From assembly GCA_961205875.1 (NCBI GenBank), contig OY540809.1, positions 29,710,267-29,774,266 of the forward strand: 64,000 nt of DNA, read 5' to 3'. This DNA is from Sialis fuliginosa (lineage: Eukaryota > Arthropoda > Insecta > Megaloptera > Sialidae). The number at the start of each line of letters is the position of its first letter. Within the stretch, counting starts at the first letter, position 1. Position numbers and translations under genes: made by a program. Shown in pieces: positions 10,484 to 60,831 of the stretch. The notes below the pieces were generated by a model, which had not been told where the DNA came from, ran no database searches, and saw nothing but the letters and a program-made list of their open reading frames with translations.

Positions 10484-10523
10484 GGCAACGGCCATACCAT
10501 GTTGAACACACCAGTTCTCGTCC
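10484..10523 (+). rRNA. 5S_rRNA: 5S rRNA gene, 5' part (nt 1-40), split by LINE A1
   Basis: GGCAACGGCCATACCATG through AGTTCTCGTCC is the first 40 nt of a 5S gene; the rest is at 15156-15243. Its helix-I strand has G at nt 2 where the array copies have A, and the 3' part carries the matching C. It lacks the upstream promoter dyad of the array copies, so it is a diverged 5S copy. Confidence 0.9.
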
Positions 10524-10742
10524 GAGTCCTTGCCAGGCATCCGAGCCGACAAGAGCAATAAAACCTCTGAAATCCTTACCGCATGTGCACCAAATTTGTT
10601 AAAAGTGTCTATGTTAGAAATTTTTACAAATATTATATTTTAAATAAGTGAACAAAGAATTCAAACAAAAACAAAAATTGAATCAAAAGAAAAACGCAAT
10701 CAAGACCCAGTGGCCTTAGGGTCACTGACTAACAACACAACA

Positions 10743-12038
10743 ATGGCGAGAAGAAACAAAAGAAAAAATACAGACGATCCAAACGAAAAAACAACTAAAA
10801 AGATTGAAACTTCAAACCGATTTGCACCGCTATCGTCAGATGAAGATGACAGTGATGAAGAAATGTTAACCGAAAATACAGAAAACACTGAAACCAAAAC
10901 TAAGAACAACCCAACACCGCCAATAGTAGTACATGGGAAAAACAACAACAAAAACATCCACACGCTACTAAAAAGAACGGTTGGTGATAATTACACGATC
11001 AAATATTCCGGACAAAACATAAACATCAGAACGACTGACGAAAGAGATCATACTACTATCTGCAGTGCATTAAAAACAGAAAAAATTGAATTCCATACGT
11101 ATACAAAAAAGAATGAAAAAACCCACGCATTTGTAATACGTGGATTAGACAATGAACCGACAACCGATGAAATAGAAAGTGAACTAAAAGAAAAATATCA
11201 AATTGATGTCAAAAAAGTATATAAAATGAAAACGAACTACAACCCGCTTTACATGATTGTGACATCAGCAAGTTACACGATTAAAAACCTACAAAATATA
11301 AAAGCATTATCACATACAATCATTAGGTGGGACAGACACCGAAATAACAAAATCATTATTCAATGTCATCGATGCCAAGAATGGGGGCATGCCACCAGCA
11401 ATTGCGAGGCCCAGCCAAAATGCCTAAAATGTGCCAAAAGCCATCTAACTAGTACATGCACGAAAACTTTAGAACAGCCTCCAAAATGCGCAAATTGCAA
11501 AGGTGAGCATGTCGCCAATAGCACCGTTTGTCCCATCTACATAGAAAAAATCAATATAATAAAAATGAGACAAAATACAACGATACAACAGAAAACATCG
11601 ATGAAAAATGACTTCCCGACACTACCACAGCCAAGAAGATTCGCACCTGCACCAACAACAAACCCATGGACAAGAAACCAACAACAACAACAACCTCAAC
11701 AACAACGACAAGAACAACCTCAACAACAACGACCAGAACAACCTCAACAACAACAACAACCCCGGCAATATCAACAAAAACAACAAGAACAATCTCGACA
11801 ACAAGAACAACCTCGACCACAACAAACCCGACAATATCAACAACATAGCGACAATCCACTTGGGGACTTCTGGGCGCTGAAGGATGAGATCGGTGAGTTG
11901 AACAGTATCATTAATATAGGCGCCATGCTTAATGCAGTTAGGGACCTTAATCAAAAATTGAAAAATACCACTAATACCATAGAAAAATTCACAGTATTCA
12001 ACAGTTTCCTAATGAATTTGGAAAGTTATGGAATATAA
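10743..12038 (+). CDS. LINE A1 ORF1 (nucleic-acid-binding, CCHC knuckles)
   Basis: A 431-aa ORF1 protein, expected to coat the element RNA and carry it to the target. The start is the first ATG in frame (MARRNKRKN); the frame also runs 11 codons upstream from a GTG. Residues 1-70 are basic then acidic. About 130-200 form a domain of PRE_C2HC type (FVIRGLDNEP, VTSASYTIKN). Residues 208-263 hold three zinc knuckles: CHRC-x4-H-x4-C, CLKC-x3-H-x4-C and CANC-x4-H-x5-C. About 310-370 is a Gln/Pro/Arg-rich tract that differs in length from A2 by one 8-residue unit. The stop lies inside the ORF2 start region, an 11-nt overlap in another frame. Confidence 0.9.
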   Translation: MARRNKRKNTDDPNEKTTKKIETSNRFAPLSSDEDDSDEEMLTENTENTETKTKNNPTPPIVVHGKNNNKNIHTLLKRTVGDNYTIKYSGQNINIRTTDERDHTTICSALKTEKIEFHTYTKKNEKTHAFVIRGLDNEPTTDEIESELKEKYQIDVKKVYKMKTNYNPLYMIVTSASYTIKNLQNIKALSHTIIRWDRHRNNKIIIQCHRCQEWGHATSNCEAQPKCLKCAKSHLTSTCTKTLEQPPKCANCKGEHVANSTVCPIYIEKINIIKMRQNTTIQQKTSMKNDFPTLPQPRRFAPAPTTNPWTRNQQQQQPQQQRQEQPQQQRPEQPQQQQQPRQYQQKQQEQSRQQEQPRPQQTRQYQQHSDNPLGDFWALKDEIGELNSIINIGAMLNAVRDLNQKLKNTTNTIEKFTVFNSFLMNLESYGI

Positions 12039-14727
12039 GACAACATTTGTCAGCTGGAATGCGAACGGTGTCAAAGGAAAAATGACTCAACTGACTAACT
12101 TACTACAGACACACATAATACATATTATGTTTATAAACGAGACTAAACTGAAAGACAATGACAAACTAAAAATAAAAGGTTATACGATATACAGACGAGA
12201 CAGACCAAACAACGAAAACGGCGGAGGTGTAGCGGTCCTCGTAAGGGACAACACACCACACAGGAAAAAAGACACTCCGGACACAACGCTTGAAACTATT
12301 GCTATTGAGCTGAGTGGGGACATTGTTATCGTTGGCGCGTATAACAGGCCGGCAAACAGGTACACCCAGGACGAGCTAAATAGACTGCTTAATACAGGTA
12401 ATAAAACAATTCTGGTAGGAGATCTAAACTCGAGACATACGACATGGGGCAACCACAGAAATAATACAAACGGACTGACACTAAGACAATTTATAGACAA
12501 TAACAATGTAAATTTGCATTACTCGACTGAACATACGCACTTCCCGCTCAATAATGGTACTCCGACTACAATAGACATTGCCATAACAAAAAATGTTATC
12601 ATAACGCGACCATACACAAAGACAGTACTTGACTCTGACCACAATCCAGTTTTTTCACATCTGACATATCACAAGACTAAAGAAATAAAAAAACAAATTA
12701 AATCACATGCTGATACGGACTGGAATAAATTTAGAAGTGACCTAGACAAATTAATAAAAATAAATAATAAAATTGACTCGGCAGAGGACATTGATAAAGA
12801 AATTACAAAACTGACTAACGCGATACAGAAAGCGGACAAGCTAAATTCAAAAATAAAAACTATAAATACAAATAGAGACAAACTACCATACGACATAATA
12901 AATGACATTAAATCAAAAAATCTGCAAAGGAAACTTTGGCAGCAAACAGGACTCGAACAACACAAACAGGCAATGCGACGACAAAATACCCAAGTAAAAC
13001 AAAAAATTAGACAATACAGAAATGATAAATGGACAGAGACTCTTCAAAATCTCAAACCAACTGACAACACACTTTGGAAAATTGCAAAATCACTTACGAA
13101 AACAAGAGTACCTATCCCTACTCTTGAAAAAGACGACCACATTGCGTACACAGACAAACAAAAAAGCGAATTAATAGCAGAGCAATTTGGAAAAGTACAT
13201 AAACCACGTGACAATACCATGACAGTACATAACCAAATTGAGCAAGAGGTGCGAACATACCTTGATAGCAAACAAAAACTGACAGACGAACAAATGACAA
13301 AAATAATGACATCACCGACAGAACTAACAAATTATATCAAAAAACTACCAAACAACAAAGCCCCTGGACCCGACGAAATAACAAATTTGACGATTAAAAA
13401 CTTATCAAAAAAGACAATAGTACAGACGACACACTTAATTAACGCAATACTCAGACATCAATATTTTCCAGAAATGTGGAAAACTGCTACAATATTACCA
13501 ATTCCAAAACAAAATAAAAATATCAAATACCCACAAAATTATAGACCGATAAGTTTACTCAATACCCTTTCGAAACTGACTGAAAAAATTATACTAGACA
13601 GACTGAAAAAACACGAACATAAAAATAAAATATTAATTGACGAACAATTTGGATTTAGACAAAAATACAATACGATACAACAGATCACCAGAATTGTTAA
13701 CGACATCACTCATGAATTTAATAAACAAAAAGTTACGTGCATGACACTACTGGACATTGAAAAGGCATTCGACACCGTATGGATCCAGGGTTTATTGCAC
13801 AAACTCATACAACAAAAAATTCCCGATTACCTTATACACCTGATAGACTCGTACCTGGGTGCGAGAAACTTCAAAGTGAAAATAAACAACACGTACTCAC
13901 CTTTAAAAGAAATAGGCGCCGGAGTGCCGCAAGGCTCCGTCCTAGGACCTCGACTCTTCCTGCACTATATAAATGACATACCGAAATTCACAAGAACCAA
14001 AATAGCTCTGTTTGCCGACGATACGGCGATATACACCCACTCGTTCAGTGCAATAGTTGCGACTAAACAAATTCAAATTCACATTAACTTACTGACTCAA
14101 TATTTAGACAAATGGAAAATTAAAATTAATACGGACAAGACTGAATATATAACATTTACTAAAAAATTCAAAGACACTAAAATATTTGACAGACTGACAA
14201 TTAACAAACAAAAAATCGAGTCAACGCACAAGGTCAAGTACCTCGGCGTGACACTCGACTATCGACTTAACTACAAAGAACACATCAAAAATATTATAAG
14301 AAAAACTCATGCAACGATTAAAACGCTATACGCATTATTAATCAACAACGGCATGAGCGAGAAAAATAAAAAACTACTATACACCGCAATAATACGACCA
14401 ATAATTACGTACGCAGCACCTGTGTGGTGTAGTGCCTCGAAACCTACGCTGAGACCGCTACAAGTACTACAAAATAAATGCCTCAGACTAATAACAAACA
14501 AAGACAGATATACTCGAGTGACCGAACTACACGAACTTACAGACCTCGAGTATATACAAGACTATATAAATAGAATGTCACAAAAATTCTATACAACACA
14601 ACTTGACGCGCACGAGCTGACAAAAACCATAACCGAAACTAGAGAACACAACTTGACGCACAGACTAAAACATAAAATACCGTATCAGACATTACCAATA
14701 TTTAGAGACAACAATGACAATAATTAA
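12028..14727 (+). CDS. LINE A1 ORF2: APE endonuclease plus reverse transcriptase
   Basis: An 899-aa protein that would nick the 5S gene and prime reverse transcription there. The endonuclease covers about residues 1-225: WNANG near 8-12, the catalytic Glu in NETKL (38), GDLNSRH near 131, TTIDIAI near 179 and SDHNP near 203-207. The RT runs about 430-740: LPNNKAPGPDE, YRPISLLNTLSKL, EQFGF, LLDIEKAFDTVW (574-585, first catalytic Asp), GVPQGSVLGP (632), the FADDT catalytic box (about 662-666) and VKYLGVTLD. A Jockey-type C-terminal segment follows (AAPVWC, LQNKCLRLIT). No RNase H domain is seen, consistent with Jockey. The ATG overlaps the ORF1 stop, so reinitiation is likely. All key residues are present. 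Confidence 0.93.
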   Translation: MEYKTTFVSWNANGVKGKMTQLTNLLQTHIIHIMFINETKLKDNDKLKIKGYTIYRRDRPNNENGGGVAVLVRDNTPHRKKDTPDTTLETIAIELSGDIVIVGAYNRPANRYTQDELNRLLNTGNKTILVGDLNSRHTTWGNHRNNTNGLTLRQFIDNNNVNLHYSTEHTHFPLNNGTPTTIDIAITKNVIITRPYTKTVLDSDHNPVFSHLTYHKTKEIKKQIKSHADTDWNKFRSDLDKLIKINNKIDSAEDIDKEITKLTNAIQKADKLNSKIKTINTNRDKLPYDIINDIKSKNLQRKLWQQTGLEQHKQAMRRQNTQVKQKIRQYRNDKWTETLQNLKPTDNTLWKIAKSLTKTRVPIPTLEKDDHIAYTDKQKSELIAEQFGKVHKPRDNTMTVHNQIEQEVRTYLDSKQKLTDEQMTKIMTSPTELTNYIKKLPNNKAPGPDEITNLTIKNLSKKTIVQTTHLINAILRHQYFPEMWKTATILPIPKQNKNIKYPQNYRPISLLNTLSKLTEKIILDRLKKHEHKNKILIDEQFGFRQKYNTIQQITRIVNDITHEFNKQKVTCMTLLDIEKAFDTVWIQGLLHKLIQQKIPDYLIHLIDSYLGARNFKVKINNTYSPLKEIGAGVPQGSVLGPRLFLHYINDIPKFTRTKIALFADDTAIYTHSFSAIVATKQIQIHINLLTQYLDKWKIKINTDKTEYITFTKKFKDTKIFDRLTINKQKIESTHKVKYLGVTLDYRLNYKEHIKNIIRKTHATIKTLYALLINNGMSEKNKKLLYTAIIRPIITYAAPVWCSASKPTLRPLQVLQNKCLRLITNKDRYTRVTELHELTDLEYIQDYINRMSQKFYTTQLDAHELTKTITETREHNLTHRLKHKIPYQTLPIFRDNNDNN

Positions 14728-15155
14728 AAACACGTGTGCTTGGAGTGAGTGAGAGATGTCTGGCGCCATGGCGCTTGATGTCTCTCTCATGCTTCAAAAG
14801 ACGCGTGGACAACAACTGACTGACCAATGAGAGCGAGAGGTAGCAAGCATAAGCGAACTATCTCTCGCTCTCTGTACGCAACAATTGACTTAACCAGGTT
14901 TTTCACCGTTGCTTTTCCTGGCAACAATAACCATAACTTTCAAAAACCCTAACTGTAAGGCTGGCGCCTGTGTTTATGTAATTGTTTTTAGACTCTCTGA
15001 TGTCATCCAACAGCGCTTTAGGATAATCCTCAAGTGGAAGGAACCTATATGAATAAAACCAATTATTTTAAATAAAATGTAAATAAATATATATATTTTT
15101 TAATCTTTTGTATATAGTGTAAAAATGTAAATAAAATGTTTTTGAATTGAATTGA
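14728..15155 (+). other. A1 3' UTR with two stem-loops
   Basis: Hairpin 1 (14751-14788) has a GCGCCATGGCGC core and outer GAGAGA/TCTCTC arms. Hairpin 2 (14829-14872) pairs GAGAGCGAGAGGTA with TATCTCTCGCTCTC across about 16 nt. Both recur in A2 (56592-56629, 56508-56551). In other LINEs 3' RNA structure is what the RT recognises; that role here is inferred. Confidence 0.65.
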
Positions 15156-15243
15156 GTTCTCGTCCGATCACTGAAGTTAAGCAACATCGGGCGCGGTTAG
15201 TACTTGGATGGGTGACCGCTTGGGAACACCGCGTGCCGTTGCC
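15156..15243 (+). rRNA. 5S_rRNA: 5S rRNA gene, 3' part, downstream of A1
   Basis: From GTTCTCGTCCGATCACTG to GCCGTTGCC followed by T7. It contains the whole internal control region. The terminal GCCGTTGCC is the exact complement of the 5' part's GGCAACGGC, showing that both parts come from one 5S gene. Confidence 0.9.
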
Positions 15244-15450
15244 TTTTTTTAATTTTATTTTTTATAAATTTATAAAATTGCAAAACCAAACTAGCTATTG
15301 TACTATTATACAAAATTTTAAAATAAATTTGTTTATTTTTTAAATTAATTTTAATAATTATTTTGTTCTAACAAGACATTTTTACATATAACTATGTTTA
15401 CACTTTTTAAATACTGTAAAATTATAATTTCCTCCTTTTTATTTTTACAG

Positions 15451-16437: not shown

Positions 16438-16477
16438 GACAATGGCCATACCATGTTGAATACACCGGTTCTCGTCC
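16438..16477 (+). rRNA. 5S_rRNA: 5S rRNA gene, 5' part, split by LINE B1
   Basis: Nt 1-40 of 5S with one change (AATGGCC for AACGGCC), preceded by the array promoter dyad. LINE B1 follows directly after CTCGTCC. Confidence 0.9.
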
Positions 16478-16645
16478 CGAGTCCTTGCCAGGCATCCGAG
16501 CCGACAAGAGCAATAAAAATCCTAGAATACCGCATGTGAACTAGAATTGTTAAAAATATAGAAATTAGAAATTTTGTGAAAAAATAAAAATAAAACAAAA
16601 CTTGAAACGTGTGAAAGTGGCCCCTGGGGCAACCAGTGGTAAAAA

Positions 16646-17793
16646 ATGAAAACAACAAAAATAAAAAAACACAGAGGACCCAAACGAAAAAAATACGAAG
16701 AAATTAGAAGTATCAAACCGATTTACGCCACTGCAGATCGATGACGATGATGAAGAAGAAAGCGCCGAAATGGAACAAGATGATACGCCAGCACCATCAC
16801 GTAAAAATACACCACCTCCGATTGTTATACATGGAAAAGAAAAAAACATACACTCCATTTTAAAGAATATATATACCAATAACACAATAAACGTAAAATC
16901 AAATAATGACCACGACCATGAAAAAATCTGTGAAGTGTTGAAAACTTCACAGATTGAATACCATACCTACACCAAGAAGACGGAAAAACCCATGCATTCG
17001 TTATACGGGGACTAGATAATGAACCAGCAACGGAGGAAATAAAAAAAGAACTGATTGAACACTATCAAATCGCAGTTAAACAGGTATTCAAAATGAATAC
17101 AAAATATAGCCCACTATACATGATAGTTACAAGTGCAAACTATCTATTGAAACACTTAAAACACATACAAGCCCTGACACATACAATAATACGATGGGAA
17201 AGGCACATCAACACCAAAAAAATTATTCAGTGTCACAGATGTCAAGAATGGGACCACGCTACCAGCAATTGCCAAGCAAAACCCAAATGTCTTAAGTGTG
17301 CGAAAGGACATCTAACAAAGTGGTGATAAACCTCTAGAAACAACACCAACATGTGCTAACTGCAGTGGACCGCACGTGTCCAACAGTATACAGTGCCCGA
17401 CCTACATAAATAAAATACAACAAATACAGGTGAAACAATCAAGAAACCACCCCCGACAGAAAATACTATCACCAGAAGATTTCCCACAATTGCCAAAACA
17501 AAAATTCATACCTGCACCATTGCCGACGACAAATCCGTGGCATAAAACAAAATTAAATGAAGAAAAACCACAGCCGATATCAGAACCAAAGACTCAAATA
17601 ACAGAAAATCCCCTTACGGAGATGTATACATTAAAAGAAGAATTTGAAAAATTAAATTCCTTTATAAACGTAGGTGCCATGCTCATCGCAGTTAGGGACC
17701 TCAACTCAAAACTAAAAGATGCAACCAACAGTATCGAAAAATTTACAGTATTCAATACATTTCTACTAACATTAGACAGTTATAAATATAAAA
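16646..17793 (+). pseudogene. B1 ORF1 remnant
   Basis: Starting at ATG 16646, this aligns with ORF1 of B2. Frameshifts split it into pieces around 16770-17015, 17093-17326 and 17376-17793. Zinc knuckles remain as CHRCQEWDHATSNC and CANCSGPHVSNS. The usual ATG of the ORF1/ORF2 overlap has decayed to ATA, so ORF2 has lost its start. Confidence 0.85.
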
Positions 17794-20057
17794 CAAAAAT
17801 ATCTACATGGAATGCAAACAGTGTTAAAGGTAAGTTGACACAATTAACGCACTTTTTATTAACACACAACATACACATAATGATAATTAACGAAACGAGA
17901 CTTAAGACACATGACAATTTTAAAATCAGAGGATACACCACAGACCTAATAACGAAAACGGCGGAGGAGTAGCGGTTTTAATAAAAAACAATACCCCACA
18001 TAAAAAAATTAACACACCAAATACCACACTGGAAACAATTGCAATAGAACTGAGCCAAGGTATCGTCGTAATCGGTGCATACAATAGACCCTCCAATAAC
18101 TTTACAACGACTGACATTGACGCACTAATAAACACAGGAACCAAGACACTTCTGGTAGGTGACTTAAATGCCAGACACACAGACTGGAACAATCACAGAA
18201 ATAACAGAAACGGTAATACTATTAAAAACTATATTAACGACAATAACATTACATTACACCACACAACTGAACACACTCACTTTCCACTAAACAACAATAG
18301 ACGTAATACTGAGCAAAAACCTACACATAACACAGTCATACACAAGTAATTTTCCAACTGACAAATCACAAAACTAAAGAAATCAAAAAACAAATCACTT
18401 CATATATAGACACTTACTGGTCAAAATTTCGTACAGACCTAGACAAAATTTTAATAATAAACGCAAATATTTACTCTCCAGAGGACATAGACAACGAAGT
18501 AACAAAACTGACGTACGCAATACAGACCGCGGAAAAAAAACTAGTATTAAAACAAATAAAGACAAATTACCAGCCGATATAATAACTGACATAAAAAATA
18601 AAAATTATCAAAGAAAACTCTGGCAAGACACGGGACTCCCTTTTCACAAAGAAAAAATGAAAAAACTAAACAAAGAAGTCCAACAAAAAATCACTGATTA
18701 CCGTAATAATAAATGGACAGAAACACTACAAAACCTCAAACCGACAGACAACATTCTCTGGAAAATAACAAAATTATTGACAAAAACCTTAACCCCTATC
18801 CCTACCCTGAAAAAATACAATGTAACATTATACACAGACAAACAAAAACCTGAAACACTGGCGAACGTATTCGAAAACATACACAAACTACAAGAAAACA
18901 CTACACAAGAACAACAACAAATACACGAACAAGTAGAACATTACGTAACACAAACATACACCCTCACAGACAGACAATTTATAAAAATAATTACGTCATC
19001 TGCCGAAGTGATACAGACAATTAAATAACTACCCAATAACAAAGCCCCCGGACCAGACGGTATCACAAACACACTATTAACCCTTAATTAGGCGCATTAA
19101 GAAAATCACATAAGTAGTCGCATGGGGTCACTACTGACTCCAAACAAATTAATGAAAATGGAGTGGAAAAATAGATTAAATGCTTTATTATTATCATAAT
19201 ACCAAAACAAAAACATAACTTTGACTTCAAACAATTAAAAATATAAAATAACTTTTAATCCCTCTAAAAACTACACATTTTTGGAATAGCAGAGATCATT
19301 TACAAAAAAAATTATTCAGATTCATCAGTAGATTCATCTATTCTGCATCCGATACAGTAAACCCTGAAGTGTTGTTGGCAAACAAATTTACCACACTTAT
19401 GGCATTTATTTGGCACTTTTTTGTCGTCCTTTCTAGGGTATTACCTTACGTCAAAAATTGTTACGTAATTGGTCGCATGGGGTCACCACGCAAGAGAGCA
19501 GCGACATATGCGTACGCGTTGACTATCCGACGGTGACTGATTTGTGTACCCTGCGGAGAGGTAGGAAGCTAGAAAGAGCACTGTCGCGTTCCAAACACTT
19601 AAACACATTATTTTTTCAATTTGAAATTGTCTTGACCCCATGCGCCTAATTAAGGGTTAAAAAACATTACACAAAAAACACTCGTACAAATAACGCACAT
19701 AATTAACGCTATAATTAAATATCAATATTTCCCTAAATCATGGAAATTCGCAACAATAATACCCATTCCAAAACCGAACAAAAACATTTACTGACCTACG
19801 GAACTACAGACCCATCAGCCTACTAAATACGCTATCTAAACTGACGGAAAAAATTATACTCTCACGACTTAACAAAATCGAAATAAAAAACAAAACAATA
19901 GTAAACGAACAGTTTGGGTTTCGATCCAAACACAACACGACGCAACAAATAACACGTATCGTTACAGACATTACGCAACAATTTAACAGACAAAACGTAA
20001 CCGCAATGGTGCTACTGGACATTGAAAAAGCCTTTGATACGGTATGGATACAGGGGC
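17783..20057 (+). pseudogene. B1 ORF2 remnant (endonuclease and partial RT)
   Basis: Endonuclease pieces are readable (STWNANSVKGK, NETRLKTHDNFK, GDLNARHTDWN), as are RT pieces NEQFGF and LLDIEKAFDTVWIQG at 19900-20052. Several frameshifts and a stop occur. The piggyBac-like element at 19081-19656 lies between the PNNKAPGPD and KTLVQ blocks. After QG the sequence jumps to the 3' UTR. Confidence 0.85.
19081..19656. mobile_element. piggyBac-type non-autonomous element (576 bp)
   Basis: It is flanked by TTAA on both sides (19077-19080, 19657-19660). Ends are CCCTTAATTAGGCGCA and its inverted copy, with GTCGCATGGGGTCAC inside. A TTAA duplication plus CCCT ends is diagnostic of piggyBac. A 63-codon frame inside is not convincing. 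It inserted after B1 did. Confidence 0.85.
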
Positions 20058-20285
20058 AAATCTAGAAAACTCTAACTGCGAAAAATGGAACCTACAATTT
20101 TATTATTTGAACAGAAATAAATGTTATTTCTGATATACAAAATTAATCTGAGATAATCTTATAGAAGGAGCTCAGTAATCAATGAATTATTATTAGTACA
20201 TAATTATATATAAAACATTGTAATGATATAATAATTTGTAAATATGATTGTATTAATTTGTAAATAAATGTGTTTTGAATGAAAT

Positions 20286-20334
20286 GGTTCTCGTCCGATC
20301 ACTGAAGTTAAGCAAGATCGGGCGCGGTTAGTAC
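20286..20334 (+). rRNA. 5S_rRNA: 5S rRNA gene, truncated 3' part, downstream of B1
   Basis: GGTTCTCGTCCGATCACTG to GGTTAGTAC, then directly into spacer (ATTTGAAATATG). The last 40 nt of the gene, including the C box, are deleted. Confidence 0.9.
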
Positions 20335-28800: not shown

Positions 28801-29017
28801 TATCCAACGGTTTGATATTTCTAGTTTATTTATATATATTTTTTATTTGGGTCCTTTTTTTTCATTTGGTTGCCTTTATTTTTTTAACACTGATTGCTCC
28901 AGGGGCCACTTTCACACGTTTTGTTTTATTTTTTGTACAATATTTTTAACAATTCTTGTTCGCATGCGTTATTCTAGGGTTTTATCACTCTTGTCGGTAC
29001 GAATGACTGGCAAGGAC
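28801..29017 (-). mobile_element. LINE subfamily B 5' end (block I)
   Basis: On minus it begins GTCCTTGCCAGTCATTC, then 5' UTR and the first codons of a degraded ORF1. Its 5' end abuts BEL/Pao sequence, not 5S. The equivalent in block II is 38028-38252. Confidence 0.75.
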
Positions 29018-30453: not shown

Positions 30454-30488
30454 GACAAGGCCATACCGTGTTGAATACACTGGATCTC
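30454..30488 (+). rRNA. 5S_rRNA: 5S rRNA gene, 5' remnant joined to inverted LINE
   Basis: GACAAGGCCATACCGTG to CTGGATCTC, 35 nt of a diverged 5S, then antisense LINE ORF2. Same junction as 43209. Confidence 0.75.
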
Positions 30489-30835
30489 ATCATTTGTTCG
30501 TCTGTCAGTTTTTGTTTGTTTTCAAGATACGTTCACACCTCCTACTCAATTTGGCTATGTACTGTCATGGTATTGTCACGTCGTTTGTGTACTTTTTCAA
30601 ATTGCTCTGCAAGTAAGTCGCTCGTTTGTTTATCTGTATTTGTATACGCTGTGTGATCGTCTTTTTTAAGAGTAGGTACATTAGGTACTCTTGTTTTCGT
30701 CAGTGATTTTGCAATTTTCCAAAGTGAATTGTCAGTAGGTTTGAATTTTTGCAGAGTCTCTGTCCATTGGCATTGTCTGTTTATGTTGTTCAAGTCCGGT
30801 TTGCTGCCAAAATTTCCTTTGCAAATTTTTTAATT
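30489..30835 (-). pseudogene. LINE ORF2 fragment between endonuclease and RT (block I)
   Basis: On minus it reads WTETLQKFKPTDNSLWKIAK, LTKTRVP, AEQFEKVHKRRDNTMTVH and stops at the 5S junction. This is the linker region of ORF2, equal to A1 about 13020-13310. It is inverted relative to the 5S remnant. Confidence 0.8.
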
Positions 30836-31325
30836 TAATTATTTCAACGAGTAACGAAACTGATTTTAAAAAAATATTTGAAGATATGCAAAACAATTCA
30901 AATGTAAAAAAATAATGAATACTCTTCTTAAGTAACTAAAATTATTTAAGAAGAAACTAATTTCGAGTTCTTCGTTATATTAAAGCATTTTTATTAAACT
31001 TTTCTGTTACAAAAGGAAAACCAATTAAATATATACTTCAAAAGGTTTTTTTTCGCCAAAATTGTGATTAATAATTAAATATTTTTTTTAATAAGGCTTC
31101 TTAATTTTTCAAGAGTGATAAAACAAAATGAAAAAAGTGGAAAATTAAAATTTGGTACATCAAGAAAATTTCCACTGCTGTAAATTGAAATATTTCTTAA
31201 TATTCTTAATTTGTCAATTGTGTTATAAACCAAATATTTTCATATTGGTAATTTTTTTGTTAAATATTATTTGTTGGTATTTATTTTGTTTTTGATTATT
31301 TTTGATTTTCTAGTTTTTTTCTTGT
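30836..31325 (+). other. 5S spacer fragment and AT-rich sequence
   Basis: Spacer from CAACGAGTAACGAAACTG through one subrepeat; the last about 100 bp (TTGTTGGTATTTATTTTG) are not recognised. Confidence 0.6.
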
Positions 31326-31680
31326 TTCAGTGTGTTACTTATAAAGGTGTGGTCTCTATCTTCAGTTGTTCTAATATTTATATTCTGACCTGTGTATTTT
31401 ATGGTATATTTTTCACCGACCGTTTTTTCAGCAGCGTGTGAATATTAATTTAAAATTTCCATTCCGTGTACCACAATAGGTGGTGGCAAGTTCTTATTGG
31501 TTTTATTTTCATTGTTTGTGCCAGTCTCTTCCATATCCATTTCATCGTCATCTTCATTCGCAAGTGGGGAGAATCGGTTTGATGTTTCAATTTTCTTTAG
31601 TAATATGCTATTGTTTATTTCTTCGATTATTTTAGTTTATTCGTCATTGCCACGTCAGCCGATGGCAATTGTTTTTCAGT
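31326..31680 (-). pseudogene. LINE ORF1 N-terminal fragment (C type)
   Basis: Antisense of the ORF1 region encoding an acidic stretch, PPPIVVHG-like and KYTGQNINIRT-like peptides, with a frameshift at the VHG...RTVG segment. Closest to the C element at 45.5-45.9 kb. Confidence 0.75.
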
Positions 31681-31840
31681 ATTAATAATTTTCTCTATTT
31701 AAAATTTATTCAAAACGACCCTCGCAACGAATGAAATTTAAAAAGATAACTTGTGAATGTCAGAAGCAAAATCTAGGGGCAAAGAAAATTTAAAAATTGA
31801 ATACAAAATCACGATTGGTAAAATAAGACTGGAAGTGTAA

Positions 31841-31977
31841 ATGACAAAAATAATGATATCACCAATTGAATTATCAAAATATATCAAACAGTTGCCAAAC
31901 AACAAAGCCCCAGGCCCGGACGAAATAATAAATCTGACAATTAAAAATCTATCAAAAAAGACAGTATTACAGACAAC
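31841..31977 (+). pseudogene. LINE ORF2 RT fragment, 5' of hAT insertion
   Basis: Encodes MTKIMISPIELSKYIKQLPN, NKAPGPDEIINLTIKNLSKK and LQTT, matching A1 residues about 428-473. It continues at 34772 after the hAT element. 31681-31840 shows nothing recognised. Confidence 0.85.
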
Positions 31978-34763
31978 TAGGGATTGCAATCCCGGCCAAT
32001 ATTTCCAATCCCGGGATTTCGGGATTGGACAATTTTCTAATCCCGGGATTAGAAAAAAAAAATTACAATAAAATTTACCATTTAAAAAAACTTATAAATT
32101 AATTCTGAAATGTGTACTTACGGTTATATATATGATTGTGAAAAATATCCCTTCAGTGAGCTTTCAGAACAGGAAAAATACACTTGACATTTAGACATAA
32201 CTAGTGGAAAAGGTGGTTACGTTTCAAAACTATTTTTGATTACACATGTTCACTATAAATTAGTTGTTCAATTAATGATTATTTTAAAGTCCAAATAATT
32301 AATTATAGTTAAAATCTAATATTTTAATTAAACTTAATTTTTAAAATAGGTTCTCAAAAAACAAAGAGCGTCTAATGTCTTATCACTCATATGTGTTCTT
32401 AATTTTGAACATAGTATGCCTACTGACGAAAATACTCTTTCAGATTCGACACTTGTTGGAGGTATAGTAATTAAATTATTATATATTTGTTGAAGAATTT
32501 CTCCTCTTCCTGTTTCTTGAAAAGTTAAAATTTCTTTTCTTATTTTGTTACCAGTATTAATGGATTCACAATGTTTTAATTGTTGGAAGTGGCATTAAAA
32601 TGTTTTATTACATTATCTAATTCAGTTTTTAATAATTTTGTACATGTAGATTGCTGTTGAGATATAATAGAACTAGATTCATCTAAATTTGAATCTTGAG
32701 CTTGTGTTATCTCGCTGGGGTTTGTTTCTGTCTCTATATTATCACATCCAATTTCAACTTGTTGATCGTATAATCTTTCGAAAGAGTCTTTTAAATTTTG
32801 TTTTATACTTATAAGAGGTGGTATTGAAAATAAATCATTGTTATTTGCATATACTTTTGAGCCACTGTGTAGATACTGCAGAACCCCAGACAGTTCACTA
32901 CGTCTCTGTTTAATTCGATGTTTCAAAGATGTCAGCATTTGATTACTAAATTCTGTATTATTTGATTCCAATTTTGCCATCATAAATTTTAATGCAGCTT
33001 CGCAAGTTATCAAATTGGCGTCCCTTCGACAGTTATTTTAATGGGTTGTAGTTGTAAGGCCGAAAAAATTATAGACGCCAGTTTTAAGTCGTCTTCAGTA
33101 ATTATAATATTTGAATTTAAATCAATTAAAGCTTTCATTAAACATGTTTTTAGTAAAATGAATCTTTCTAGCATATCTACTAAACTATTCCATCTGGTTT
33201 TAGTATCCAATATTAATGATTTTTCTTTATTTTCAGTCTCATTTATATATTTCTGCAATGTGTCGTTTTTTGGGCGATTTTCTGAAAATCTTAACAATTT
33301 TTCGTATTTTTTGTATTAATGTTTTTATATTTTCATTTCTTAACACTGGAACTTGTCTATAATTATTAGCATGATTCCAAACTGTCAACTGTAATAGTTG
33401 TTATTTCACTACTATTTTTATATAGAACATCGATAACAGCAAGTTGAATACCATGAGCAAAACACAATTGCTGGTAACCTGTTAATAAATTTCCTACTTT
33501 AACCATTACACTTGCTCCGTCTGTTGTAATAGATATAATGTCTTTTTCTAAAGAAATATTATATTCTTGCAATTTTTTTTGTAAATACTCGACACATTTT
33601 TCTGCAGGCATACTACCACGAACTCTTAATAATCCTAAACTATAAAATTTTGCTTCCGACTCAAAATAATGTAAATTTATGTTCATATACCTCCTGTTTC
33701 GCAGAGAAGTCCATTCGTCAAATGTTAAACTAAACTTTATAAAATTATTTTTCTTATTTTTAATTTCACAAATAACTGCTATTTTTATATTTTTATAATA
33801 GTCCATTACTAAATTTCGAATTGTATTTGGCGATTTTGGTATATTATTAAAACCTCTTGCTCTAAGAGCTTCACGTAAATCTGAGGAGGTGTAAAATACG
33901 TTAAATGATAATCCATCTCGTGCAGTCATTCTAGCAAGAATTGCAGGTAAGGAATTATCTTTTTTTAAAGAAAGTAATTAGTAATTACACCTTTATTTTT
34001 AATTTCACATTCGATATTAGTATTACTGCTACCCTGATAATCTAGATTAGACACAACATAATTGCGTTTTAATAAATTTATTTTATGAATAGAATTCAAA
34101 TGCACATGAAGTCCTTTTGTGGAACCTTTACTTGTTTTCAACTCTTTATTACAGGTTTTGCACTTTGCAGATTGTCCATTCACTTCCCGCAAAAAGTATT
34201 TCCACACAGAAAATTCTTGTGCACTGTTTGATTCCACATATTTTTTATTAGAATGATTATATGAGTTAGCCATAATAATTCACCGTTAAAAACAATTTAC
34301 AATGTATATACGTTAACAAGTGCATGTTAAAAGAAATACAGTGAGATACTAAATGTCGTTGGGATGTTCTAGTTTTAGATAGATTGCTTTATCATAAATA
34401 AAATAGAAAATACTGTTAGTCAAACCTTAAAATTTGTTAAAATGTATTTTTTTAACAATTTCTTGAAAAAGACAATATATCCAGAAATATTGTTCGATGT
34501 CGCCAAAAATCCAAACGACCCTTTTTAGCTAAATATTCTTAGAAGGGTAGTTTATGTAATTGCTTCCAGATGTGTTTGTATACACCAAACTTAGAAATTT
34601 CACTTCTAATGCAGGCTAGCGTTAATATATCTTCGTAGAAATATAAGATGCAGATTTACTTATAAAAAAAATCCCGAAATCCTGGTATTTATATGTCTTC
34701 AATCCCGGGATTTCGAGATCAAATTATTGGTCGGGATTCGGGATCCCGGGATTGCAATCCCTA
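31978..34763 (-). mobile_element. hAT DNA transposon (2.79 kb), inactive
   Basis: Terminal inverted repeats TAGGGATTGCAATCCCGG and CCGGGATTGCAATCCCTA. The 8-bp duplication is CAGACAAC (31970-31977) and CAGACGAC (34764-34771), one mismatch. Subterminal ATCCCGGGATT motifs are repeated at both ends. It carries a frameshifted transposase on minus and interrupts a LINE ORF2 relic. Confidence 0.9.
32334..34273 (-). pseudogene. hAT transposase, three frameshifts
   Basis: From ATG at 34273. A BED zinc finger (WKYFLR, CKTCNKE, LHVHLNSIH) occupies about residues 20-70. The catalytic core has FDEWTSLRNRRY (first Asp), TTDGASVMVK (second Asp), CFAHGIQLAV and WNSLVDMLERF. A C-terminal dimerisation block IPPTSVESERVFSSVG is followed by LCFLRTYFK before the stop. 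Frameshifts fall near 33960 (in a T7 run on plus), 33370-33390 and 33015. The full product would be about 640 aa, normal for the family. It would cut and paste this element if repaired; as it stands it is dead. Confidence 0.88.
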
Positions 34764-34771
34764 CAGACGAC

Positions 34772-34890
34772 TCATACAATAAATGCAATACCAAGACATC
34801 AATGTTTTCCAGAAATGTGGAAAACCGCTACTATTTTACCAATACCGAAATAAAATAAAAACATCAAAGACCCACGAAGTTACAGACCGC
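34772..34890 (+). pseudogene. LINE ORF2 RT fragment, 3' of hAT insertion
   Basis: Continues 31841-31977: QTTHTINAIPRHQCFPEMWK, TATILPIPK, a stop, NKNIKDPRSYRP. It breaks off at ACACCAACTACTATG. The following 290 bp to the 5S gene show nothing I recognise. Confidence 0.85.
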
Positions 34891-38027: not shown

Positions 38028-38252
38028 GTCCAACGGTTTGATACTTCTAGTTTCTTTGTATTTTTTTCATTTGAGTCCTCTGTTTTTTCTTTTGGTTGTT
38101 TTCATTTTTTACCACTGATTGTTCCAGGGGCCACTTTCACACGTTTCAAGTTTTGTTTTATTTTTTCTACAAAATTTTTAACATTTCTATTTCACATGCG
38201 GTATTCTAAGGTTTTATCGCTATTGTCGGGTCGGATCCCTGGCAAAGACAGT
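38028..38252 (-). mobile_element. LINE subfamily B 5' end (block II)
   Basis: On minus: GTCTTTGCCAGGGATCC, 5' UTR, then the start of ORF1 in degraded form (compare 54748 upward). It abuts BEL RT at 38252. Counterpart of 28801-29017. Confidence 0.75.
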
Positions 38253-49495: not shown

Positions 49496-49535
49496 GGCAA
49501 CGGCCATACCATGTTGAATACACCGGTTCTCGTCC
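49496..49535 (+). rRNA. 5S_rRNA: 5S rRNA gene, 5' part
   Basis: Nt 1-40 (GGCAACGGCC...CTCGTCC), preceded by spacer and dyad half. A LINE 5' end follows with no extra bases. No 3' part is found nearby. Confidence 0.88.
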
Positions 49536-49588
49536 GTCCTTGCCAGGCATTCGACCCAACAAGAGCAATAAATCCTGAAATAAAATAA
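49536..49588 (+). mobile_element. LINE 5' tip (about 50 bp) after 5S nt 40
   Basis: GTCCTTGCCAGGCATTCG and following AAGAGCAATAAAT, then a switch into antisense ORF1. Confidence 0.75.
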
Positions 49589-50465: not shown

Positions 50466-50739
50466 AATTTCAATTCAAAAACATTTATTTACAATTTGAT
50501 ACAATAATATTTACAAATTAATAAGTATAACATTACAAGTGTTTAATATATAATTTTGTACTAAAAATAATTCCTTTCTTACTAAGCTCCTTCTATTAGA
50601 TTATCTCAGATTATTATTTTTTATCAGAAGTAACTTTTATTTCTGTTAAAATAATAAATTGTAGGTGCCATTTTTCGCAGTAAGGGTTTTGGTTTTTATA
50701 TTGTGGTTTCGTTTCCAGGAAAAGCAAACAGTGAAAAAC

Positions 50740-50775
50740 CTGGTGAAGATATTTGTGTGTGTGTGTGTGTGTATG
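50740..50775. repeat. (TG)n microsatellite in the B2 3' UTR
   Basis: About ten TG dinucleotides; the reason for several short spurious frames on both strands. Confidence 0.8.
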
Positions 50776-50902
50776 TGTTGACAATGCGGGCGAAGGCACG
50801 CACGACAAATATGCGTAAGCGAGTGCTCACCCACATGCCCCGCGCACACCCTCGCTCGTACCATCTTTTATTGTTATTGTTTTTTGTTTATATGTATTTG
50901 TG

Positions 50903-53586
50903 TTATTGTTGTGTGAAAATTGGTAGCGTCTGATATGGTAGTTTGTGTTTGAGTATGTATGGTGCATTATGGTCTCTTATTTTCGTTATGTCTTTTGTTA
51001 ACGGGTTGTTATTTAGTTGTGTGTCGTAGAATTTTTGTGATAGTCTTGTTATGTAGTCGTGTATTGTTTCAATATCAGTCAGTTCGTGTAGTTCTGTCAC
51101 TCTCGTGTAGCGGTCTTTGTAATGAGTCGTAGGATTTTGTTTTGAAAAACTTGCAGCGGTTTGAGGGTTGGTTTTGATGTATTACACCACACTGGAGCTG
51201 CGTGCATAATAGTCGGTCGTATTATCGCTGTGTAAATGAGCTTTTTGTTTTTCTGCTCTGTACCTTTGCTGATGAGCATTGGGTACAGGGCTTTTGTTGT
51301 GGCGTAGGCGTTTTGTATTACCTTTTTTACATGTTCTTTGAAATTTAGTCTATAGTCCAGTGTAACACCTAAATATTTTACTTTGTGTGTCGGTGTTATT
51401 TCGTCGTTATTTAACGTCAGTTTTTGAAATATTTTGGTATTGGTAAATTTTTTGGTAAAGATTATGTGTTCGGTTTTGTTTGTGTTTATTTTGATTTTCC
51501 AGTGTCTGAAGTATTGCGTCAGTAAGTTAGTGTGTATCTGTAATTGTTTGGTCGCAACAATGGCGCTGAATGAATGGGCGTATATTGCCGTATCATCCGC
51601 GAACAATGCTGTTTTCGTCTGTTTGAATTGTGGTATGTCGTTTATGTAGTGCAGGAATAGTTTAGGTCCGAGAACTGAGCCCTGAGGTACCCCCGCGTGT
51701 ACGTCCTTTATCGTCGAGTTAGTGTTATTTACTTTTACTGTAAAATGTCTTTCGCTTAAGTACGAGTACAGCAACTTTACGAGATAATCGGGTATTTTGT
51801 TGTTAATCAGTTTGTGTATCAACCCCTGGGTCCAGACAGTGTCAAAGGCTTTTTCTATGTCGAGTAACACCATGGCAGTGACGTTATGTTTATTGAAATT
51901 GTGTGTAATGTCTGTGGCTATACGTGTTATCTGTTGTGTAGTATTATGTTTTGCGCGGAAGCCGAACTGTTCATTTACTATTGTTTTGTTTTTTATTTCT
52001 ATTTTGTTCAGTCTCGTGTGTATGATTTTTTCCGTCAGTTTTGAAAGTGTGTTTAGTAAGCTAATAGGTCTGTAGTTTCGCGGGTCAGTAATGGTTTTGT
52101 TCGGTTTCGGGATAGGTATTATTGTGGCTAGTTTCCAGGATTTGGGAAAGTATTGATGTTTAATTATTGCATTTATTATGTGTGTGATCTGTACTAGTGT
52201 TTTTTGTGAAATGTTTTTGAGTAGTTTGTTTGTTATACCGTCTGGCCCAGGAGCTTTGTTGTTAGGTAGTTTTTTAATTGTCTGTCGCACTTCGGCAGGT
52301 GACGTCATAATTTTTATAAATTGTTTGTCTGTGAGTGTGCATGTTTGTGTTACGTATTGTTGTACCTGTTCGTGTATTTGTTGCTGTTCTTGTGTAGTGT
52401 TTTCTTGTGCTCTGTGAATGTTTTCGAATGTGTCAGCCAGTGTTTCACATTTTTGTTTGTCCGAGTAAATTGTCGTGTTGTCTATTTCCAGGGCTGGGAT
52501 TGGGGTAAATGTTTTAGTCAGTAGTTTTGTCATCCTCCAGAGAGTGTTGTCTGATGGTTTAATTTTTTGTAATGTTTCTGTCCAGTTATTGTTGCGGAAG
52601 TCAGTAATTTTTTGTTGAATTTCTTTATTTAGTTTTTTCATTGCTTCTTTGTGAATTGAAAGTCCCGTGTCTTGCCAGAGTTTTCTTTGATAATTTTTAT
52701 TTTTTATGTCTTGTATTATATCGTCTGGCAATTTGTCTTTGTTCGTGTCAATTGTTATGGTTTTTGAGTTCTTTTTTCCCGCAATCTGTATCGCGTTTGT
52801 CAGTTTAGTCACTTCGTTGTCTATCTCTTCTGGAGTGCTGATGGTCGGATTTATTTTTATGTTTTCGTCTAGGTCTGTGCGAAATTTTGTCCAGTCAGTG
52901 TCTATATATGACGTGATTTGTTTTTTGATTACTTTAGTTTTATGATTTGTCAGTTGAAATATTACTGGGTTATGGTCTGAGTCTAGTTCTGGTTTTGTGT
53001 ATGGCTGTGTTATTGGTGTGTTTTTGTTTAATATAATGTCTATTGTTGTGGGTGTTCCATTGTTGAGTGGAAAGTGAGTGTGTTTAGTTGTGTGATGTAG
53101 TGTAATGTTATTGTTGTTAATATAATTTTTAATAGTGTTACCGTTTCTGTTGTTTATATGATTGTTCCAGTCTGTGTGTCTGGCATTTAAGTCACCTACC
53201 AGAAGTGTCTTAGTCGCTGTATTCATTAATTTGTCAATGTCAGTCATTGTAAGATTGTTAGATGGTCTATTATATGCGCCGATTACGACGATACCTCGAC
53301 TCAGTTCTATTGCAATAGTTTCCAGTGTGGTGTTTGGTGTTTTAACTTTTTTATGCGGAGTGTTGTTTTTTATCAAAACCGCGACTCCACCGCCGTTTTC
53401 GTCATTTGGTCTGTCTCGTCTGTAAGTGGTGTACCCTTTGATTTTAAAATTGTCATGTGTTTTGAGTCTCGTTTCGTTAATGACCATAATGTGTATTTTG
53501 TGTGTGTGTAAAAAGTGTGTTAATTGTGTTAACTTACCTTTAACACTGTTTGCGTTCCATGTAGATACTTTTGTTTTATATTCCAT
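50903..53586 (-). pseudogene. B2 ORF2, endonuclease and RT, one late frameshift
   Basis: From ATG 53586 an 829-codon frame carries all endonuclease motifs (STWNANSVKGK, NETRLK, GDLNARHTDWN, TTIDIIL, SDHNPV) and the full RT (NNKAPGPDGITN, YRPISLLNTLSKLTEKII, LLDIEKAFDTVWTQG, GVPQGSVLGPK, LFADDTAIY, VKYLGVTLD). At about 51115 a 4-nt deletion relative to A1 (RLIT, then KTATRE and a stop) shifts the frame. The last 60 residues continue to 50903 (TELHELTDIETIHDYITRL). Only the extreme C-terminus is lost, so this is a recently disabled copy. Confidence 0.9.
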
Positions 53587-54748
53587 AACTGTCTAATGTT
53601 AGTAGAAATGTGTTGAATACTGTGAATTTTTCGATACTGTTGTTTGCATCTTTTAGTTTTGAGTTGAGGTCCCTAACTGCGTTGAGCATGGCACCTACGT
53701 TTATGAAGGAATTTAATTTTTCAAATTCTTCTTTTAATGTATGCATTTCCGTAAGGGGATTTTCTGTTATTTGAGTCTTTGGTTCTGGTATCGGCTGTAG
53801 TTTTTCTTCGTTTAATTTTGTTTTATGCCACGGATTTGTCGTCGGCAATGGTGCTGGTATAAATTTTTGTTTCGGCAATTGTGGGAAATCTTCTGGTGAT
53901 AGTGTTTTCTGTCGAGGGTGGTTTCTTGTTTGCTTCGCCTGTACTTGTTGTAATTTATTGATGTAGGTTGGGCACTGTATACTGTTGGACACGTGCGGTC
54001 CACTGCAGTTAGCACATGTTGGTTTTGTTTCCAGAGGTTTATCACACTCTATTGTTAGATGTCCTTTCTCACACTTAAGACATTTGGGTTTTGCTTGGCA
54101 ATTACTGGTAGCGTGGCCCCATTCTTGATATCTGTGACACTGAATAATTTTTTTGTTGTTGATGTGCCTTTCCCATCGTATTATTGTGTGAGTTAGGGCT
54201 TTTATGTGTTTTAAGTGTTTTAATAGATAGCTTGCGCTTGTAACTATCATGTATAGTGCGCTATATTTTGTATTCATTTTGAATACCTGTTTAACTGCGA
54301 TTTGATATTTCTCAATCAGTTCTTTTTTTATTTCTTCCGTTGCTGGTTCATTATCTAATCCCCGTATAACGAATGCATGGGTTTTTTCCGTCTTCTTGGT
54401 ATAGGTGTGGTATTCAATCTGTGAAGTTTTCAACACTTCGCAGATTTTTTCATGGTCGTGGTCATTATTTGATTTTATGTTTATTGTATTATTGGTATAT
54501 TTTAGTGAATAATGGTCCCCTACCGTTTTCTTTAGAATGGAGTGTATGTTTTTTTCTTTTCCATGTATAACAATCGGAGGTGGTGTATTTTTACGTGGTG
54601 GTGCTGGCGTTTCATCTTGTTCCATTTCGGCGGTTTCTTCTTCGTCATCGTCATCGATCTGCAGTGGCGTAAATCGGTTTGATACTTCTAATTTCTTCGT
54701 ATTTTTTTCGTTTGGGTCCTCTGTGTTTTTTCTTTTTGTTGTTTTCAT
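53576..54748 (-). CDS. LINE B2 ORF1 (CCHC-knuckle protein)
   Basis: A 390-aa ORF1 from ATG 54748 (MKTTKRKNTED); an upstream GTG in frame at 54820 is not needed. Layout as in A1: basic and acidic N-terminus, APPRKNTPPPIVIHG, PRE_C2HC (HAFVIRGLDNEPATEEI), three zinc knuckles. In the first knuckle the second Cys is Tyr (CHRYQEWGHATSNC), which should weaken nucleic-acid binding. The Gln-rich tract of A1 is absent. It overlaps ORF2 by the same 11 nt. Confidence 0.88.
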   Translation of the reverse strand: MKTTKRKNTEDPNEKNTKKLEVSNRFTPLQIDDDDEEETAEMEQDETPAPPRKNTPPPIVIHGKEKNIHSILKKTVGDHYSLKYTNNTINIKSNNDHDHEKICEVLKTSQIEYHTYTKKTEKTHAFVIRGLDNEPATEEIKKELIEKYQIAVKQVFKMNTKYSALYMIVTSASYLLKHLKHIKALTHTIIRWERHINNKKIIQCHRYQEWGHATSNCQAKPKCLKCEKGHLTIECDKPLETKPTCANCSGPHVSNSIQCPTYINKLQQVQAKQTRNHPRQKTLSPEDFPQLPKQKFIPAPLPTTNPWHKTKLNEEKLQPIPEPKTQITENPLTEMHTLKEEFEKLNSFINVGAMLNAVRDLNSKLKDANNSIEKFTVFNTFLLTLDSYGI

Positions 54749-54918
54749 TATTTTATCACTGGTTGCCCCAGGGGCCACTTTCACACGTTTCAAGTTTTGT
54801 TTTATTTTTATTTTTTTCACAAAATTTCTAATTTCTATATTTTTAACAATTCTAGTTCACATGCGGTATTCTAGGATTTTTATTGCTCTTGTCGGCTCGG
54901 ATGCCTGGCAAGGACTCG

Positions 54919-54958: not shown

Positions 54959-55248
54959 TAAATAATAAACTATACACTATTGTATAGGTGAAACTTATAT
55001 AAGTACATACAATTGCATATACTACAACAAAATTATTATCATTTCTGATTGAAAAGATCCTGATGTACTAGAATTTTTTTTCTCACTTCAGAGGTGTAAA
55101 TAACGTAATGAACATTTACTACAAAAATTTGTGAAATGTGGATGTTGGAATATGTGCCAATATTTTTGTAAATTCAGTCATCTCATTTTTTTAAAGAGTA
55201 GACCGCGAGTAGATTTTTACTGGAAAACATTGAAATATTTCTTTTTCA
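54959..55248 (-). other. 5S upstream spacer, inverted
   Basis: Dyad (CTATACACTATTGTATAG on plus) and the conserved region. Cut at a LINE tip on its right. Confidence 0.75.
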
Positions 55249-55327
55249 AAATTTTTAACAATTCTAGTTCGCATGCGGTATTCTAGGGTTTTATTGCTCT
55301 TGTCGGGTCGAATGCCTGGCAAGGACT
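55249..55327 (-). mobile_element. LINE 5' tip (about 80 bp)
   Basis: AGTCCTTGCCAGGCATTCG through GCATGCGAACTAGAATTG, then a jump into 5S spacer. It shows an insertion later removed almost completely by deletion. Confidence 0.8.
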
Positions 55328-55367
55328 GGACGAGAACCGGTGTATTCAACATGGTATGGCCGTTGTC
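55328..55367 (-). rRNA. 5S_rRNA: 5S rRNA gene, 5' part
   Basis: Nt 1-40 on minus, followed by the LINE tip at the usual site with no extra bases beyond AGTCC. The 3' part has been lost. Confidence 0.9.
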
Positions 55368-56222: not shown

Positions 56223-56652
56223 AATCAATTCAATTCAAAAACATTTTATTTACATTTTTACACTATATACAAAAGATTAAAAAATATATATATTTATTTA
56301 CATTTTATTTAAAATAATTGGTTTTATTCATATAGGTTCCTTCCACTTGAGGATTATCCTAAAGCGCTGTTGGATGACATCAGAGAGTCTAAAAACAATT
56401 ACATAAACACAGGCGCCAGCCTTACAGTTAGGGTTTTTGAAAGTTATGGTTATTGTTGCCAGGAAAAGCAACGGTGAAAAACCTGGTTAAGTCAATTGTT
56501 GCGTACAGAGAGCGAGAGATAGTTCGCTTATGCTTGCTACCTCTCGCTCTCATTGGTCAGTCAGTTGTTGTCCACGCGTCTTTTGAAGCATGAGAGAGAC
56601 ATCAAGCGCCATGGCGCCAGATATCTCTCACTCACTCCAAGCACACGTGTTT

Positions 56653-60609: not shown

Positions 60610-60831
60610 TGTTGTGTTGTTAGTCAGTGACCCTAAGGCCACTGGGTCTTGATTGCGTTTTTCTTTTGATTCAATTTTTGTTTTTGTTTGAATTCTTTGT
60701 TCACTTATTTAAAATATAATATTTGTAAAAATTTCTAACATAGACACTTTTAACAAATTTGGTGCACATGCGGTAAGGATTTCAGAGGTTTTATTGCTCT
60801 TGTCGGCTCGGATGCCTGGCAAGGACTGGGC

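Follow-up and report, generated by a model that had tools for sequence, protein, structure and literature searches.

A LINE family of probable Jockey-like ancestry inserted at a single position of 5S rRNA genes in Sialis fuliginosa

The DNA analysed here is a stretch of 64,000 nucleotides from Sialis fuliginosa (contig OY540809.1, positions 29,710,267 to 29,774,266; hereafter the window, with positions counted from its first letter). It carries part of a 5S rRNA gene array, and many copies of a long interspersed nuclear element (LINE) are interspersed among its 5S spacers. We put the probability at about 90% that these copies belong to a non-long-terminal-repeat (non-LTR) retrotransposon family of the apurinic/apyrimidinic endonuclease (APE) type and that this family, whose ancestry is probably Jockey-like, targets a single site in the 5S rRNA genes of its host. 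Five intact 5S genes, four of them mutually identical and the fifth 96.6% identical, represent empty targets, and the spacers are built of tandem units of ~121-126 bp. Eight of the 13 5S loci in the window are broken at or next to the insertion site (A1, A2, B1, B2, C, D, T and the duplicate of T). The features are listed below with the letters used for the individual copies; a slash marks the boundary between 5S and LINE.

10484..10523, plus strand: 5S nt 1-40 upstream of A1, host variant GGCAACGG...CCAGTTCTCGTCC; first copy of the duplication at 10513-10523
10524..15154, plus strand: A1, full-length LINE, both open reading frames (ORFs) open
10743..12038, plus strand: gag-like ORF1 of A1, counted from the first ATG (frame from stop to stop, 10644-12038); three knuckles of CCHC type recognised by eye
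12028..14727, plus strand: ORF2 of A1, with APE endonuclease (PF14529/PF03372) and reverse transcriptase (RT; PF00078); its start overlaps the ORF1 stop
15155..15244, plus strand: 5S nt 30-119 behind A1; second copy of the duplication at 15155-15165
56223..60831, minus strand: A2, second LINE of the A subfamily, with 5S halves at 60871-60832 and 56222-56133
50466..54918, minus strand: B1, LINE of the B subfamily, with 5S halves at 54958-54919 and 50465-50376; the ORF2 frame breaks near the C-terminal end
16478..20285, plus strand: B2, degenerate LINE of the B subfamily, with 5S nt 1-40 at 16438-16477 and nt 30-78 at 20286-20334
49496..49581, plus strand: C, 5S nt 1-40 and a short LINE 5' end, CC/GTCCTTGCC
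55241..55367, minus strand: D, 5S nt 1-40 running into a short LINE 5' end, CC/AGTCCTTGCC (position of the inner edge approximate)
30454..34889, plus strand: T, antisense LINE directly behind 5S nt 1-39, with sense LINE further on; partial duplicate from 43168
22529-22647, 26336-26454, 27937-28055, 35181-35299 and 37050-37168, plus strand: the five intact 5S genes, 119 nt each

Six LINE 5' ends directly follow nt 40 of the 5S gene, three of them on the plus strand (A1, 10523/10524; B2, 16477/16478; C, 49535/49536) and three on the minus strand (B1, 54919/54918; D, 55328/55327; A2, 60832/60831). Behind four LINE 3' ends, 5S sequence resumes at nt 30 (A1 at 15155 and B2 at 20286 on the plus strand, B1 at 50465 and A2 at 56222 on the minus strand). 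Each of the four two-ended copies lies between the two halves of a target-site duplication, which reads GGTTCTCGTCC on both sides in three of them (11 bp) and AGTTCTCGTCC on both sides of A1, where the element tail may instead end with the downstream A at 15155 and the length is accordingly 10 or 11 bp. An earlier note on this DNA had reported six separate LINE 5' ends at nt 40, four 3' ends followed by 5S from nt 30 and an 11-bp duplication recreated each time. The four 3' ends stand and the six 5' junctions are exact, but the junctions of B1 and B2 count only once, which leaves five distinct ones, and the duplication is 11 bp in three of the four two-ended copies, on both strands, and 10 or 11 bp in A1. 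The 5S head of T (30454, duplicate at 43168), broken at nt 39, had not been counted.

The 5' junctions are of five kinds: CC/GAGTCC (A1), CC/GCCCAGTCC (A2), CC/CGAGTCC (B1 and B2), CC/GTCC (C) and CC/AGTCC (D). The 3' tails of the two-ended copies all contain TTGAA and vary in their last bases. The 10-mer GTTCTCGTCC has 15 exact copies in the window, which are those of the five intact 5S genes, the six LINE 5' junctions and the four LINE 3' junctions; dinucleotide shuffles held 0.05 copies on average, and none of 100 shuffles gave 15. Within the window the site is occupied at six of eight visible LINE 5' ends and at four of four visible 3' ends, as located with 5' queries from A1, B1 and D and 3' queries from A1 and B1, which the ends of distant copies may escape. 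By simple arithmetic, and assuming random placement, five independent events would share one position in a 119-nt gene with a chance of ~(1/119)^4, near 5e-9. Insertion of an APE-type LINE at one position of the 5S gene appears well supported within the window.

The interrupted genes can be restored. Without the insert and one repeat, A1, A2 and B1 each rebuild to a 119-nt 5S gene, which agrees with the array 5S at 119 of 119 positions for A2 and at 118 of 119 for B1; B2 retains 5S nt 1-78 only. The gene rebuilt from A1 differs from the array 5S at five positions (nt 2, 24, 30, 47 and 117). The Rfam structure pairs nt 2 with nt 117 and nt 30 with nt 47, and both changes are compensatory in the A1 host (A-U to G-C and G-C to A-U), with the partners on opposite sides of the 4.6-kb insert. 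The private A30 is present in the upstream copy of the A1 duplication; the downstream copy also has A, possibly the last base of the element. Since compensatory changes lie across the insert, A1 entered a diverged and structurally maintained 5S gene, and the same pairs argue against an assembly error and against 5S pieces borne by the element. If the 5S pieces were a captured head and tail that move with the LINE and not its target, both would be expected on every two-ended copy, as is the case. However, A1 and A2 differ by 18 substitutions in ~4.6 kb, yet their 5S halves differ at 5 of 119 sites, four of which form the two compensatory pairs, and array spacer continues beyond the 5S pieces that flank A2 and B1. 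We regard captured 5S pieces as hardly credible.

Two clear subfamilies, A and B, occupy the site, in agreement with what had been claimed before. A1 and A2 are 98.6% identical over 4.8 kb, with homology that stops about the 5S edges; apart from the substitutions they differ by three internal indels (24, 2 and 6 bases), and the ORF2 frame of A2 is shifted by a 2-base insertion. Between A1 and B1, ORF2 has a nonsynonymous divergence (dN) of 0.225 and a synonymous divergence (dS) of about 3, at which synonymous sites are saturated. These values indicate a long separation of A and B under selection, with the target unchanged. The family is old. As the two subfamilies share the site despite saturated synonymous divergence, the specificity probably predates their split. 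A1 looks recent. Its proposed competence is something that we infer from the two open ORFs, and A1 may still be able to move.

Several observations weigh against repeated insertion at a fixed site. The upstream flanks of B1 and B2 are 99.3% alike (B2 reaches 80-91% with seven other units), and over the stretches compared on opposite strands (16147-19076 against 55249-52222) their identity falls from 99-100% (in the flank and over the ~270 bp with which the element begins) through 91-97% to mostly 80-90%. Such a pattern points to gene conversion or to a recent exchange between copies on opposite strands; because flank and 5' sequence are shared, the two 5' junctions count once, as one event or as homogenised sequence. 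The upstream flanks of D and A2 (290 bp) are also 99.3% alike, so that D counts as independent on the strength of its junction and 5' sequence. The LINE parts by which C and D are judged measure 40-87 nt, and over the compared stretch D is 92% like B and 81% like A. Two further LINE 5' fragments, E (29017) and F (38249), lie outside 5S in a duplicated segment; both stop after ~210 bp, have no LINE 3' end and look rearranged:

28808..29017, minus strand: E, LINE 5' fragment outside 5S, adjoining BEL/Pao-like coding sequence (by eye)
38034..38249: F, fragment similar to E, adjoining BEL/Pao-like coding sequence (by eye) in the same duplicated segment

Being part of a 5S array, the window is moreover a biased sample, in which copies elsewhere are undersampled. 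For beetles of the genus Tribolium, the available parts of a published study report that some Jockey-like copies of T. freemani lie outside 5S arrays and that those of T. castaneum are not 5S-associated (PMC11202950).

A single LINE insertion that multiplied as the array underwent unequal crossing-over and segmental duplication, with no repeated site-specific integration, would account for the sequence shared by B1 and B2, for the similar flanks of D and A2, for the partial duplication of T at 43168 and for the position of D and B1 within a 409-bp tandem repeat. It does not sit well with five different 5' junctions and differing 3' tails, nor with two clear subfamilies plus the C and D variants. 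A1 in particular lies in a diverged 5S gene, and its 290 bp of upstream sequence are unlike any array spacer, with no match among the other 12 flanks, whereas the near-identical A2 lies in a regular array unit. Downstream of A1, spacer-like sequence (67-77% identity) begins at 15516, ~270 bp beyond its 5S remnant and ~1.2 kb ahead of the next 5S piece (16438). We judge multiplication of one insertion to be very improbable. The five distinct 5' junctions and the diverged host gene of A1 speak for separate insertions, and the junctions are not all tandem duplicates of one event, an outcome that the earlier note had named as fatal to its proposal. We count about five distinguishable insertion events on both strands (A1, A2, B, C and D), as judged from the junctions and flanks.

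The inverted copy T is likely a sixth event. Its antisense LINE starts at the equivalent of A1 position 13297 and runs down, and its sense part starts at A1 13292. T resembles a 5'-inverted, twin-primed insertion at the 5S site that was later broken up, as twin priming at LINE insertion yields 5' inversions of this kind; a simple later inversion is conceivable instead. T is interrupted by spacer sequence and, at 31977-34762, by an insert of 2.8 kb. The ends of this insert are inverted and of the TAGGGATTGCAAT type, 8 bp appear to be duplicated around it (CAGACAAC/CAGACGAC), and by eye it is a hAT-like DNA transposon. The 409-bp tandem pair mentioned above (54824-55637) consists of spacer, 5S nt 1-40 and a LINE 5' end and puts D just upstream of B1. 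It probably arose by unequal exchange, and D could act as an extra promoter unit.

The family is an APE-type non-LTR retrotransposon by its domains, target-site duplication, variable 5' junction and 3' tail. PF14529, PF03372 and PF00078 score above their cut-offs in ORF2 of both A1 and B1, while Pfam gave no RNase H match in ORF2 and no match at 0.001 for ORF1 of A1. In a 40-row alignment, D136 and N138 of A1 fall in invariant columns and D208, H209 and A667-D669 in nearly invariant ones. Homologue searches scored 7992 candidates sharing most words for ORF2, of which 100 proteins passed, and 7991 for ORF1, of which 89 passed. Among the matches listed, the nearest named relative of ORF2 is a protein of Asbolus verrucosus (50% identity); a Formica protein labelled X-element shares 47%. 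The best named relative of ORF1 among the matches listed is a Phyllotreta protein labelled nucleic-acid-binding protein from transposon, and further ORF1 relatives include an Anthophora protein labelled X-element and proteins of Cryptolaemus, Aethina and Acanthoscelides. The X-element belongs to the Jockey clade, whose members lack RNase H and have an ORF1 with CCHC knuckles. The present family has the same layout, with no RNase H match in ORF2 and three CCHC-type motifs, identified by eye, in ORF1. Type I ORF1 proteins have been described as combining an RNA recognition motif with CCHC motifs (PMC4120745, in the passages available). A scan of IMG/VR for ORF2 relatives found six stretches that fit the pattern and no relatives, and a scan of the same collection for the 5' junction pattern gave three matches that by eye were neither 5S nor LINE-like and were judged to be chance.

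A first RT tree was built from 95 of 101 sequences, with minimum lengths of 550 aa for the protein and 300 aa for its RT stretch, and a second one from 45 rows, namely 44 hand-picked from the 95 and human L1 as the root. In the second tree A1, A2 and B1 group together (100/100) inside a 16-row clade (99/92) that includes the X-element-labelled Formica protein. A wider clade of 27 rows (96/96) holds A1 and B1 and omits human L1 and five RNase H-bearing rows. The X-element name of the Formica row is the label of its source, in a tree without curated Jockey, CR1, R1, Mutsu or Tx1 rows. Jockey-like ancestry, which had been proposed for the element, is likely on this grouping, with names that are the sources' own labels.

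Two other placements have to be weighed against it. R1, TRAS and SART combine an APE endonuclease and RT with a fixed site in a multicopy target, which is 28S ribosomal DNA (rDNA) or a telomeric repeat. If the element belonged to the R1 clade, its target would be new and its lineage would not; the APE and RT layout is common to R1-clade LINEs. According to the available part of one source, APE-type target-specific elements have been placed in the Tx1 and R1 clades (PMC4640811). However, the Anthophora relative of ORF1 and the Formica relative of ORF2 each bear an X-element name, which points to the Jockey clade, and the RT tree separates A1 and B1 from the RNase H-bearing rows. One of these rows, P0051, has an endonuclease that matches TRAS1 of the R1 clade at E 8e-6. 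PDB searches for a TRAS1-like outgroup matched P0199 and P0051 to TRAS1 (1wdu) and did not match P0063 and P0065, and the RT of A1 stands apart from the available rows nearest TRAS1. The A1 endonuclease alone gave no match to 1wdu at E up to 10, which says little because no other LINE endonuclease was matched either. A homologue search seeded with P0088 returned 12 proteins (the query included), none named as an R1 or I reference. Taken together, we consider a position in the R1 clade unlikely.

The zebrafish element Mutsu shares the kind of target gene, being a LINE specific for 5S rRNA genes in the sources as far as available (PMC11202950, PMC3706591). The host of Mutsu is a fish, and its RT lineage is probably another, with human L1 as its sole stand-in. 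Mutsu is a member of the Tx1 clade. The 27-row RT clade omits human L1, a single long-branched row that represents L1 and Tx1. An RT inside this known 5S-specific group, which would have overturned the earlier proposal, is disfavoured by the separation from that one L1 protein, and we rate a Mutsu-type element as exceedingly improbable.

For the family of probable Jockey-like ancestry that we favour, the duplications suggest how insertion may proceed. They imply a bottom-strand nick between 5S nt 29 and nt 30, which would be made by the endonuclease, and a top-strand cut after nt 40 with an 11-nt stagger. Primed by the 3' end that the nick sets free, the RNA of the element would be reverse-transcribed from the tail that contains TTGAA; the tail does adjoin nt 30, which is what target-primed reverse transcription leads one to expect. 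These steps would lead to the arrangement found in the window, 5S(1-40) - LINE - 5S(30-119) in the sense orientation of the 5S gene, in which 11 bp are duplicated and the 5' junction has a small number of variable bases. The internal RNA polymerase III promoter region of the 5S gene, which we take to span roughly nt 50-97, survives in the 3' remnant, since nt 30-119 are kept together downstream. Chimeric transcripts of LINE tail and 5S may possibly arise from such loci.

The closest published case that we found is that of Volaric et al. 2024, who describe Jockey-like LINEs of ~5 kb that regularly interrupt the 5S arrays of Tribolium freemani and are mostly associated with 5S (PMC11202950, on which we rely here as far as its text was available). 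The earlier note knew of no description, and to this extent an association of Jockey-like elements with 5S arrays was already in print; recognition of a site was not found in the available text, which gives neither an exact insertion site nor a target-site duplication and in which 'site-specific' and 'insertion site' have 0 occurrences. In T. freemani, 32 of 113 5S copies are without their first 30 bp, occur solely in the Jockey arrangement and are called pseudogenes, much like the four remnants that start at nt 30 behind LINE 3' ends in the window. The 5S search in that study required >70% coverage, so 40-nt 5' halves would have escaped it. Satellite-like 5S spacers are a further likeness (monomers of 122 and 71 bp there, units of ~121-126 bp here), whereas the first 5S primer printed in the study is unlike the window 5S. 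About 20 T. castaneum 5S copies miss 30 bases at the opposite end, which the present site does not explain (PMC11202950). The truncated copies of T. freemani appear to fit the present site closely, in a comparison that knows the beetle elements by their description.

Other insertions into 5S genes and other members of the Jockey clade differ more. Dada-5S of fish also inserts into 5S rRNA genes, but the Dada elements are DNA transposons with a DDE transposase and unrelated machinery (PMC8869645, from the part available). The passages available from PMC4120745 describe the Jockey clade as restricted to arthropods and most APE LINEs as relaxed in target choice, with TART of the Jockey clade forming Drosophila telomeres, and they mention no Jockey-clade element in 5S. 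We found no site-specific Jockey-type insertion in 5S in the openly licensed literature, a search that left subscription papers, Repbase and preprints aside. We regard the family as a real, site-specific 5S LINE, probably Jockey-like; elements of this kind are already known in print from 5S arrays. In the literature found, as far as it was available, we met with neither the exact site nor the duplication, nor with the argument from compensatory pairs or the reading of the element as target-specific.

Outside the LINEs, ORFs checked by eye for host genes were only low-complexity or transposon-like. Another LINE extends past the end of the window, and a direct repeat of 668 bp (1-668 and 3112-3779) is 99.85% identical.

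It is, in our view, an even question whether a Jockey-clade lineage gained strict specificity for this 5S site (nt 29/30 on the bottom strand and nt 40/41 on the top strand) independently of Tx1-type Mutsu and kept it at least through the split of A and B, which would also explain the truncated 5S copies of T. freemani and make the family an old, 5S-bound counterpart of the R1 and R2 elements of 28S rDNA. If true, a Jockey-like lineage fixed on 5S would represent another gain of strict specificity beyond those of Tx1 and R1, and the endonuclease changes behind target choice could therefore be compared with non-specific relatives. The finding would offer a mechanism for the truncated 5S copies published for a model beetle genus. 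It is relevant, too, to the persistence of a 5S locus with breaks on the scale seen in the window, where 8 of 13 5S loci are disrupted at or beside the site.

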